NCBI GenBank assembly: GCA_009693575.1
Contig: SHWZ01000012.1
Coordinates: forward strand, 1 to 54,575
Direction: 5' to 3'
Source: Flavobacteriaceae bacterium
GTDB taxonomy: Bacteria > Bacteroidota > Bacteroidia > UKL13-3
DNA length: 54,575 bases
Part shown: positions 20,428 through 47,986 of the stretch, piece after piece
Layout: every line of letters starts with the position of its first letter
Position numbering within the stretch: position 1 is the stretch's first letter
Program-made: the position numbers and the translations under genes
The notes under the pieces: generated by a model
Told to the model about the DNA's origin: nothing
The model's input: the letters and a program-made list of their open reading frames with translations, nothing else
Database searches by the model: none

Positions 20428-21450
20428 ATGAAGATAGACATTCACGCACATATATTGCCTAAAACTTGGCCAGATCTGAAACAGAAATACGGCTACAGTG
20501 GTTTCATTCACCTCCACCATCACAAGCCTGGCTCAGCAAGGATGATGGCCGACACTGGGCAGTTTTTCAGAGAGATACAACAAAACTGCTGGGACCCTAA
20601 AAGTATATTGGTGGATATGGATGCACACCGAGTGGACAAAATGGTGCTGTGTACCGTGCCGGTATTGTTCAACTACTGGGCTAAGCCTACTGACACATTA
20701 GACTGGAGCCGTTTTCTGAACGACCATTTGATAGAAGTACAGAACGGATATGACAACCGCTTCATCGGGCTGGGGACATTGCCAATGCAGGATGTGGATC
20801 TGGCAATTCAGGAACTAAGACGCTGCCATGAAATAGGTTTGCCAGGGGTAGAAATAGGATCTCATGTGGAAGACAAAAATCTAGATGACTCTACTTTTTT
20901 CCCTTTGTGGGAGGCTGCTCAGGACTTGGACATGTGTATCTTCGTTCACCCTTGGGATATGATGGGTCAAGCCAAAATGCCGAACTATTTCTTGCCTTGG
21001 TTGGTTGGTATGCCTGCCGAAACCTCCCTCGCCATCTGCTCTATGATTTTTGGCGGAGTGTTTGACAAATTTCCGAAACTGAAAGTGATGTTTGCCCACG
21101 GTGGTGGGTCTTTCCCCTTTACGGTTGGGCGGGTGAGCCATGGTTGGCATTGCCGCCCTGACCTCTGTAATGTCAACGACATCCGAGATCCGCGTGATTA
21201 TATTGGCAAGTTTTGGATAGATGGCATCACCCATGATGAGGAAGCTTTGAAGTACCTGATAAACATGTTTGGGGCGGATAAAATCGCATTCGGCACTGAC
21301 TACCCATTTCCACTAGGCGATTTAGAGCATGGTAAATTTATTGAGCAGATGCCTGACTTGTCAATAGAAACCAAAGAACAGCTGCTTAGCAAAACAGCCG
21401 TAGATTTTTTAGGCTTGAACATAAAATCTGAGATAGCAAAATCGAGATAA
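20428..21450 (+). CDS. Amidohydrolase family protein, ACMSD-type decarboxylase
   Basis: The 340-aa protein closely matches aminocarboxymuconate-semialdehyde decarboxylase, which diverts the kynurenine or 2-nitrobenzoate pathway away from quinolinate. Zinc ligands are visible: DIHAHILP (His6, His8), FVHPWDMMG (His ~174), and FGTDYPFPLG (Asp ~291); FAHGGGSFPFTVGR is also typical. The N-terminal insertion with RMMADTGQFFREIQQNCWDP is characteristic of ACMSD rather than of other amidohydrolases. No other kynurenine-pathway gene is in the window. Fairly sure of subfamily, less of the in vivo substrate. Confidence 0.87.
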   Translation: MKIDIHAHILPKTWPDLKQKYGYSGFIHLHHHKPGSARMMADTGQFFREIQQNCWDPKSILVDMDAHRVDKMVLCTVPVLFNYWAKPTDTLDWSRFLNDHLIEVQNGYDNRFIGLGTLPMQDVDLAIQELRRCHEIGLPGVEIGSHVEDKNLDDSTFFPLWEAAQDLDMCIFVHPWDMMGQAKMPNYFLPWLVGMPAETSLAICSMIFGGVFDKFPKLKVMFAHGGGSFPFTVGRVSHGWHCRPDLCNVNDIRDPRDYIGKFWIDGITHDEEALKYLINMFGADKIAFGTDYPFPLGDLEHGKFIEQMPDLSIETKEQLLSKTAVDFLGLNIKSEIAKSR

Positions 21451-43933: not shown

Positions 43934-44560
43934 CTATACAGGCTTTCCCAACCAATCCCTGAAATGCCCTGCCAGCACTTGAAGGCTTTGGTCTATATGG
44001 GTATTGTTCATCACAATGATGTCCGATGCTTCGCGAAAGGGCAGCAGAAATTGATCGTAGGCGGGCTTCACATGATGTTGCCATTGGTACTCGATGGTTT
44101 CGTGAGGAATTCCCCGCTCGTCGCGGTCACGCAGCATGCGGCGTTGCCACTTGATGTCTTCTGACGCATCGACAAACACCTTCAATTGCAGTTGCCTAAA
44201 TATCTTCTCGAAGTAATAGATAAACAAACCCTCAATCACAATGATGGGTGCCGGCTTCACCACAATTGTTTCCGGGGCTTTGCCGGGGTTGTTAAACACA
44301 TACTCTGTCTTAGTGATGGACTGCCCGCTTTTCAGTTTTTCCAAATCCGACAGGAAATACCCAAGGTCAATGCAGGAAGGCAGGTCGTAGTTCACCACCC
44401 CGTTTTCATCGGCCACCTGCTGGGCCAAGGGTTTATAGTAATTGTCCTGCGACACAATGCAGAGTTCATGCTCCGCAAACAGCCCCCGCAGCGATTGCAG
44501 CAAATGGGTCTTGCCCGAAGCACTGCCGCCCGTGATGCCTACTAAATATGGATTTTGCAC
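43934..44560 (-). CDS. udk: Uridine kinase
   Basis: This 208-aa cytoplasmic kinase phosphorylates uridine and cytidine for nucleotide salvage. The Walker A motif GGSASGKT lies near residues 11-18, the magnesium/substrate region SQDNYYKPLAQ near 39, NYDLPSCIDLGYF near 58 and IVIEGLFIYYFEKI near 105. The start codon is GTG at 44560, inferred from the usual N-terminus (MQNPYLVGITGGS) and a promoter element only 4 nt upstream. Length is normal. Confidence 0.94.
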   Translation of the reverse strand: MQNPYLVGITGGSASGKTHLLQSLRGLFAEHELCIVSQDNYYKPLAQQVADENGVVNYDLPSCIDLGYFLSDLEKLKSGQSITKTEYVFNNPGKAPETIVVKPAPIIVIEGLFIYYFEKIFRQLQLKVFVDASEDIKWQRRMLRDRDERGIPHETIEYQWQHHVKPAYDQFLLPFREASDIIVMNNTHIDQSLQVLAGHFRDWLGKPV

Positions 44561-44564
44561 GGGG

Positions 44565-44572
44565 CAAAGGTA
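44565..44572 (-). promoter_or_regulatory. TAnnTTTG element 4 nt before the udk start
   Basis: The minus strand reads TACCTTTG ending 4 nt before GTG 44560; transcription from it would give a leaderless or nearly leaderless mRNA. Confidence 0.55.
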
Positions 44573-44610
44573 TTGGGCTTTTTAGTTTGGGTTAGTTGCC
44601 TTAATTTTGA

Positions 44611-44703
44611 AATATAGAAACCATCAAAAACCTCATTACCATAGATAATGAAATACTGGGCGGACAACCCGTATTTAAGGGAACACGTCTGCCTATCGAA
44701 TCC
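44611..44703 (+). other. Upstream extension of the DUF433 domain without a normal start codon
   Basis: Reading back from 44704 in frame to the stop at 44608-44610, the codons give typical DUF433 N-terminal sequence (NLITIDNEILGGQPVFKGTR). No ATG, GTG or TTG lies in this part; ATA at 44614 sits where MET would be expected (ATA GAA ACC). Either a start codon was lost, an unusual one is used, or a sequencing difference is present. Confidence 0.65.
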
Positions 44704-45462
44704 TTGTTCATGCACTTAGAAAAAGGAATAAGCCTTGACGAATTTTTGGAAGATTTTCCAAGTGTCAGTAAGGAGGTGGCAGTGGCAGTGCTGGCTGTGG
44801 AAGAAAAAATAATGACTTCAAAAGACGCTGACCCCGAAAGCGGCGAACACTACACATGGGCTAATGGAGATAAATTAGACTACGCGAACAGTATTGAAGT
44901 AGAATTTGCAATAGGATTGGTTACCCCGCAACAAGCAGAGGCAATACGAAAAGCCAAAGAAGCCTACGACAAAAGGAAACAAAAAACACCCCCGCAAGAG
45001 GCCGATACCAAGGCCAAACTGAAAGAGGTATTCAAGACACTTTTTGGGCTGAATGAAGAACAAGCTGATGCCAATGCCGATGTATATTTTGGCGTGTTCA
45101 ACGTAATGGCCAAACGTGCGGGAATAACGCTGGAAGAAGCCCTGCAACGCGTAAAATATGCCATGGAAGATCCCAACCTAAAGGGGGGTGAATTTCATGC
45201 AGAATATGAAGGGGCAAAGCAATGGGGCGAAGATGGGAGCCAAGATCCTGCCGATGTATTGAACGAGATAGTAAAGGAGTTAATGCTAGCCACAAGAGGG
45301 GATAAAAAAAAGATAATACAGGCTTTTGAAACGTATGGGCTTGAAGCCGATATGTTAGCGGGGATAAAAGAGAACATTGATGCCTTGATGGAGAGTGCAG
45401 CTAATTCATTCACAGAAAGCGAAGCCGCTAAGTATGCCTCCAAAAAGGAAAAGACGCCTTAG
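44704..45462 (+). CDS. DUF433 domain joined to a polyvalent-protein-like segment (possible gene remnant)
   Basis: The first recognised part (domain from ~44614 to ~44815) is DUF433: KGTRLPIESLFMHLEKGISL and DEFLEDFPSVSKEVAVAVL, a helix-turn-helix antitoxin-like family. Then comes a different ~215-residue sequence: SGEHYTWANGDKLDYANSIE, a Lys-rich stretch and LNEEQADANADVYFGVFNVM with AKRAGITLEEALQRV. The last motif resembles segments of large polyvalent proteins of phages and conjugative elements, from memory. No PIN-type toxin is adjacent. The conventional start at 44704 (TTG) would cut DUF433; ATG 44710 cuts one codon more. Beyond the TAG stop the frame continues LSEEEKRVKA before TGA. A decaying chimeric gene is plausible. 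Confidence 0.6.
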   Translation: MFMHLEKGISLDEFLEDFPSVSKEVAVAVLAVEEKIMTSKDADPESGEHYTWANGDKLDYANSIEVEFAIGLVTPQQAEAIRKAKEAYDKRKQKTPPQEADTKAKLKEVFKTLFGLNEEQADANADVYFGVFNVMAKRAGITLEEALQRVKYAMEDPNLKGGEFHAEYEGAKQWGEDGSQDPADVLNEIVKELMLATRGDKKKIIQAFETYGLEADMLAGIKENIDALMESAANSFTESEAAKYASKKEKTP

Positions 45463-45530
45463 CTGTCGGAAGAGGAAAAGCGGGTAAAGGCTTGATTACT
45501 CTCTCTAATTTTCTTTTCTTTTCAATGCCC

Positions 45531-46846: not shown

Positions 46847-46854
46847 TACTTTTG
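46847..46854 (+). promoter_or_regulatory. TAnnTTTG element 4 nt before the glycosyltransferase start
   Basis: TACTTTTG ends 4 nt before ATG 46859, in the 30-nt gap after pepT; another predicted near-leaderless transcript. Confidence 0.55.
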
Positions 46855-46858
46855 CTGC

Positions 46859-47986
46859 ATGCAAGTGCTACAGCTTTTCCACCGCTACCTCGATGAATCG
46901 AGCCATTGGGTGCACGACCTGTTGAAGCCGCTGGAGGATGTAGAATTGACGGTAGCTGCTCCCGTCTGGCTCAATCCCCATTTTGAGATAGCGGGGATGA
47001 AAAAAGTGCCGATACCTCACACCATTGATATACAAAAAAAGCAAGGTTTCTGGTTCAGGCAAAAGATAAAACGCAACTACAGGCATATCAAAAGCTGGAT
47101 GATGGAACATGCCAAAGACTTTGATTTGGCACATGCCCATTTCTCGTTTGTTGGCTGGGAGTACGCGAAATTGTGCCACACGATTGGCAAGCCACTCTTG
47201 GTATCATTTTATGGATACGACTATGAGCATTTGCCACATACGCTACCCATTTGGAGAGACCGCTACCGGGAACTTTTTCTGTTGGCCGATGCCTTTATTG
47301 CCGAAGGGGGACATGGTGCCGAAACACTTGCCCGCATTGGTTGCCCTGAACATAAAATCAGGATTGTGAAGCTGGGAGTGGAAGCTAAAAACATATTGAC
47401 ACCACGAACAAAAGCCAGCCATAGCCTACAGTTAATTCAGGTGGCCAATATGAAAGAAAAGAAAGGCCATGCGTATACACTTCAGGCATTTGCCAAGGCA
47501 TTGGCTACTTGCCCCAATATGCACCTCACCTTAGTTGGAAGTGGAGAAGGGGAGAACGAAGTACGAAGTACGATTTACGATTTACAATTGGACAAGCATG
47601 TTTCGATTATTCCGCGAATTGATTATCGGGAACTACCCGATTTTCTTTCGAGGTTCGACGTGCTTATTCAACCCAGCTTGCTCACTGCCGACAAAGACAC
47701 GGAAGGCGGAGCCCCAATTATATTGCTTGATGCACAGGCCGCCGGGCTACCCATTATTGCTACCAAACATGCCGACATACCCAATGTGGTGAGCGAAGGT
47801 GCAACGGCACTGCTGAGTTCGGAACGCGATATTGATTCATTGGCGGCTCATATCAGCACCTACTATCACAGCACTCCTCAAAAGTATACGGAAATGAGTG
47901 TTGCTTCTATCAATTGGCTGCAGCAGCATTTCTTAGCCCATAACTGTGCAAAAAATTTGCAGGAATGTTATCGTGAATTTGCGTAG
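46859..47986 (+). CDS. Family 4 glycosyltransferase
   Basis: The 375-aa protein has the GT-B fold. N-terminal half: LQLFHRYLDESSHWVHDLLK and LAHAHFSFVGWEYAKLCHTI; hinge: GYDYEHLP and IAEGGHGAETLARIGCP. C-terminal GT4 nucleotide-sugar region: LIQVANMKEKKGHAYTLQAF (~195-215), LVGSGEGENEV, and EGGAPIILLDAQAAGLPIIA (~287-306), where the first Glu normally binds the sugar nucleotide ribose. It would transfer a sugar to a lipid or polysaccharide; donor and acceptor are unknown. It stands alone, ending at a bidirectional terminator before the large minus-strand gene. Confidence 0.88.
   Translation: MQVLQLFHRYLDESSHWVHDLLKPLEDVELTVAAPVWLNPHFEIAGMKKVPIPHTIDIQKKQGFWFRQKIKRNYRHIKSWMMEHAKDFDLAHAHFSFVGWEYAKLCHTIGKPLLVSFYGYDYEHLPHTLPIWRDRYRELFLLADAFIAEGGHGAETLARIGCPEHKIRIVKLGVEAKNILTPRTKASHSLQLIQVANMKEKKGHAYTLQAFAKALATCPNMHLTLVGSGEGENEVRSTIYDLQLDKHVSIIPRIDYRELPDFLSRFDVLIQPSLLTADKDTEGGAPIILLDAQAAGLPIIATKHADIPNVVSEGATALLSSERDIDSLAAHISTYYHSTPQKYTEMSVASINWLQQHFLAHNCAKNLQECYREFA

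Follow-up and report, generated by a model that had tools for sequence, protein, structure and literature searches.

A toxin-less DUF433 antitoxin gene with ATA at the start-codon position and an in-frame fusion to unique sequence in a Flavobacteriaceae bacterium: probably a recently crippled gene

Genes encoding DUF433 proteins together with PIN-domain proteins have been proposed to be toxin-antitoxin pairs, and stand-alone DUF433 proteins were described as 70-80 amino acids long (PMC2701414). VapBC10 of Synechocystis was shown to be a toxin-antitoxin pair, the antitoxin of which neutralises the toxin and binds its own promoter (PMC3834315). In Bacteroidota, DUF433 genes are found in DUF433-DUF5615 pairs (L001, L002, L012, and others), in which the antitoxin of about 80 amino acids ends in an overlap with the DUF5615 gene. 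Our search of a limited literature collection found no paper treating DUF433 together with DUF5615.

The window, that is, the whole stretch of 54,575 nucleotides of a Flavobacteriaceae draft genome analysed here, carries on the + strand an open frame of 283 codons, from AAT 44611 to TAG 45460-45462, which opens AAT ATA GAA ACC ATC and has 282 residues when ATA is counted as residue 1. The frame cannot begin 5' of AAT-ATA because an in-frame TGA occupies 44608-44610. It is flanked by housekeeping genes of the uridine kinase family and the M20 peptidases. The features of the locus are as follows:

44602..44609, + strand, -7 promoter box TAATTTTG (consensus TAnnTTTG; located by script), ending 4 nt before ATA; predicted transcription start 44614
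44614..44616, + strand, ATA in the start-codon place, ATG or GTG in relatives (from the sequence and the alignment of relatives)
44614..44826, + strand, antitoxin domain of the DUF433 family (COG2442), in which homology to relatives ends near residue 71 (SKD); from Pfam PF04255 (2.2e-16) and alignment
44704..44712, + strand, first conventional in-frame starts, TTG 44704 and ATG 44710; initiation there would remove 30 or 32 residues of DUF433
44812..44814, + strand, in-frame ATG, A at both -3 and -6, just 5' of the junction; a possible internal start for the extension alone
44827..45459, + strand, C-terminal extension of about 211 residues, predicted helical, with no detectable relative (searched as 44824-45459, 212 residues)
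45460..45462, + strand, TAG stop, followed by 10 open codons and then TGA 45493-45495

We favour, with a probability of roughly 0.55, the reading that this gene is an orphan DUF433 antitoxin that has lost its toxin, has been fused in frame to unique sequence, and has recently lost its start codon. The locus probably represents a gene that was crippled not long ago, and not a new system.

The antitoxin identity is shared with the described family (DUF433/COG2442 of the VapB10 type; PDB 2ga1, Rv2018) by both sequence and fold. Pfam places DUF433 (PF04255, COG2442) at residues 8-61 with 59.8 bits against a cut-off of 23.6, and the top four fold matches were 2ga1 and 5af3 (Rv2018), with weak E values (0.019-2.1) and probabilities of 0.87-1.00. 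The window gene differs from these antitoxins in having no adjacent toxin, no family-typical C-terminal end, 212 extra residues, and ATA at its start. Its closest relatives are the DUF433-DUF5615 pairs of Bacteroidota, with identities of 62-81% over about 70 residues to 10 loci in one scan of genome contigs. DUF433 matches were present in 19 of 64 family genomes, its own included, and every match except that of the window itself covers residues only up to about 75. The antitoxins of the closest relatives have 80-81 codons, unlike the window gene, in which homology ends at SKD and the family's last nine or so codons are missing. Among the 150 matches listed in a phylum-wide survey, DUF433 open frames had a median of 84 codons, four exceeded 150, and the largest, of 417, was extended upstream and not downstream; the 283-codon frame is thus far longer than a stand-alone DUF433 antitoxin. 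A DUF433 protein with extra sequence is also encoded by the Pseudomonas aeruginosa plasmid pF061_1 (L106 1087-2206, WP_329046018.1), but there the first 414 nt of the gene precede the domain match, which puts the extra sequence at the N-terminus, and a DUF5615 partner adjoins, unlike in the window gene. No second DUF433 was found in the genome, a draft of 86 contigs that is 92% complete.

An open frame overlaps the end of the antitoxin in 12 of the 14 relatives examined, its likely start lying 17-20 nt short of where the antitoxin's stop codon ends. All 10 of the partner genes tested match DUF5615 (PIN-like) at E < 0.001, seven of them over Pfam's curated cut-off. In contrast to these partners, no DUF5615 match was found at the DUF433 locus of the window, which bears out the suggestion, made earlier from the sequence, that no toxin is adjacent. 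Since no toxin gene was found beside the antitoxin, no antitoxin would be needed. We looked for a toxin remnant at the locus and found none. The only DUF5615 match of the genome is on another contig (L085, C77:12822-12944, - strand, in a 55-codon open frame), and this is possibly a toxin remnant.

For the start codon, 31 relatives were scored after L003 and L006, which repeat others, and L011 and L035, which are the window's own, had been dropped; in each, the ATG closest to the aligned position counted as the start, with GTG or TTG as the fallback. By this rule 29 start with ATG and two with GTG, and none has ATA or the fusion. The relatives align from residue 1, and 12 of the 31 start exactly at the place of ATA (11 ATG, e.g., L001, L002, L005, L007, L012, and L013, and one GTG), while 18 start within three codons of it and one starts 15 codons upstream. 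It was noted earlier that ATA GAA ACC stands where ATG GAA ACC would be expected and that DUF433 is complete only if translation begins upstream of any ATG, GTG, or TTG. Both points hold, as no relative was scored with ATA and TTG 44704 is the first such codon.

The promoter box has been kept at the spacing seen in relatives. The gap between box and start is exactly 4 nt in 15 of the 31 relatives, 3 nt in two, and 7 nt in two, so that 19 have a box at 3-7 nt, and the background of TAnnTTTG is 61 matches on 109 kb of strand, approximately 0.0006 per position. The -33 element of such promoters is a TTG expected 17-21 nt upstream of the -7 box, and none was seen there upstream of the window's box when the sequence was read. 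In Flavobacterium psychrophilum, the -7 box spans positions -12 to -5 relative to the transcription start, and 5.5% of the mRNAs are leaderless (PMC9723704). By analogy, transcription is predicted to start on the very first base of the start codon, 44614, which would give a leaderless mRNA. Toxin-antitoxin transcripts of Mycobacterium tuberculosis are reported to be predominantly leaderless (PMC8485053).

We propose that the ancestor was a DUF433-DUF5615 toxin-antitoxin operon as in Bacteroidota relatives, in which transcription would begin, probably without a leader, at the ATG of the antitoxin gene, whose last codons the toxin gene would overlap. A rearrangement may then have removed the toxin together with about nine codons of the antitoxin, and the same rearrangement would have joined the antitoxin in frame to the 212-codon stretch. 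The promoter box would have been kept at its exact spacing while the start codon became ATA. An AUA at the 5' end presumably initiates poorly, so that little or no protein would be made from there; the most likely effect of ATA is the loss or near-loss of the protein. As the frame is still open, the loss of the start would be recent.

Several observations count against the loss of the start. A box at 3-7 nt is absent in 12 of the 31 relatives and in all of the 30 best-scoring, more distant DUF433 genes of the phylum-wide survey, which apparently belong to other subfamilies and mostly to other families or classes, so that taxonomy confounds this contrast. Invariant sites of DUF433 are broken no more often in the window gene (two) than in nine close relatives (0-5 by the same count), and decay by this route was therefore not seen; dN/dS told us nothing, since most pairs are saturated at synonymous sites. 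The uridine-kinase family gene (udk, - strand) has no ATG upstream of its GTG at 44560, which lies 4 nt after TACCTTTG (GTG and box together at 44560-44572). This gene, divergent from the DUF433 promoter, may be transcribed without a leader and start at GTG. If so, non-AUG starts at the 5' end may be tolerated.

The frame also has no internal stop and a normal coding score, which leaves only a recent loss or none at all. At the base composition of the window, the chance of a 283-codon open frame is about 1e-7. With a codon model built from the 27 genes of the window, four consecutive pieces of the frame scored 0.342, 0.344, 0.443, and 0.260 bits per codon, gene-like throughout; the 27 genes themselves average 0.242 (leave-one-out), and the highest score among 1240 wrong-frame stretches of 212 codons was 0.218. 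The synonymous codon choice of the extension alone is weak (0.023, with 2 of the 27 genes below that). Under neutral drift, the probability of no stop would be 0.51, 0.19, and 0.035 at 0.02, 0.05, and 0.1 substitutions per site, frameshifts not being counted. The ten plausible codons that were pointed out after the TAG are indeed present, but they do not stand above chance, as 4870 of 8250 wrong-frame stretches of 10 codons are open and 899 of these 4870 score as high. We rejected readthrough past the TAG, the ten following codons being ordinary.

The extension follows the truncated DUF433 directly and in the same reading frame. Searches with its 212 residues stayed at chance level in Pfam, PHROGs, and NCBIfam and, with the threshold relaxed to E 10, found nothing in phage or plasmid records; the only match in 395 phylum genomes was the extension itself, as also when its own genome was searched at E 10. 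Three sets of patterns gave no match in viral contigs, and no homologue of the whole fusion was found among the genome contigs, 64 family genomes, and 395 phylum genomes scanned, where the contig scans used short exact peptide patterns that would miss distant relatives. The extension is predicted to be helical with low to middling confidence (single-sequence pLDDT 54.8), and a model with DUF433 relatives aligned only over the domain reached a whole-model pLDDT of 72.3 and a pTM of 0.36. Fold searches returned nothing credible for it. Around the M20 peptidase, six regions with homologues (L067-L072, of which L069 and L070 have little flank) contained no udk or extension match, so that this comparison of gene order showed no empty site in relatives.

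Taken with the kept domain, the intact frame is compatible with a recent loss, with the use of AUA or an internal start, or with a wrong base. We consider it unlikely that translation starts inside the frame, whether at TTG 44704, ATG 44710, ATG 44812, or a GTG within 44776-44797, and yields chiefly the extension, with the DUF433 part left over as a leader. ATG 44812 is well placed for this, just 5' of the junction and with A at -3 and -6, which were described as positive determinants in Flavobacterium johnsoniae (PMC6847099); against it, the methionine at 44812 belongs to ordinary DUF433 sequence in relatives, and the DUF433 part is as well kept as theirs. A perfect Shine-Dalgarno-like 9-mer, AAGGAGGTG, lies at 44770-44778, followed by in-frame GTG codons. 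It was rejected as a signal for an internal start, for the 9-mer occurs three times on the two strands of the window and is unlikely to matter because the phylum is described as naturally lacking Shine-Dalgarno sequences (PMC6847099).

It is likewise improbable that base 44616 is an assembly or sequencing error and that the gene is an ordinary ATG gene. The draft state of the genome and the ATG of the relatives speak for an error, but a single consensus error exactly at a start codon would be rare a priori, and nothing else in the frame looks wrong.

Quite unlikely, in our judgment, is a working fusion gene whose leaderless mRNA is translated from AUA, so that a DNA-binding DUF433 protein extended by a new helical tail is made at a low level. 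The exactly kept promoter spacing, the long open frame with its coding signal, and the kept domain residues would all agree with such a gene, and rare AUA starts are mentioned in general terms (PMC9094748). However, every relative scored has ATG or GTG, and no homologue of the fusion was found that would show conservation. In E. coli, moreover, non-AUG starts on leaderless mRNA are described as much less efficient (PMC9031893, naming GUG, UUG, and CUG and not AUA), although GUG works well in some species (PMC9031893). The further step, that a toxin-free DUF433 antitoxin has become a lone regulator carrying an entirely new helical domain, its low level set by translation from AUA at the extreme 5' end of a leaderless mRNA, appears very unlikely.

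The sequence-only reading had likened the extension to the large polyvalent proteins of mobile elements, a family described in PMC5512222, and had raised the possibility of a decaying mobile-element remnant. That the extension is a piece of such a protein from a phage or conjugative element is highly improbable, and we rejected a polyvalent or mobile-element origin: the all-helical prediction and the earlier impression of the sequence agree with it, but the searches described above gave no match, the one fold match named polyvalent had E 2.5 and probability 0.02, and the neighbours are housekeeping genes. The polyvalent-like label is thus unsupported and the decaying remnant unproved, the latter also in view of a frame without internal stop.

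The window gene alone is one broken or odd gene, and the more general point is the fixed spacing of box and start in its relatives. In this DUF433 subfamily a gap of exactly 4 nt between box and start codon is frequent, from which leaderless antitoxin mRNAs would be predicted in Bacteroidota. The window would then be a natural test of a 5'-terminal AUG that now reads AUA, and activity of this AUA, if true, would widen the rules for leaderless initiation. Among 29 gene starts considered in the window, three have the box at 4-5 nt, namely those at 20428, at udk 44560, and at 46859. The gene at 20428 has it at 5 nt, and that at 46859, with TACTTTTG 4 nt before its ATG (46847-46861), is a candidate for a leaderless transcript.
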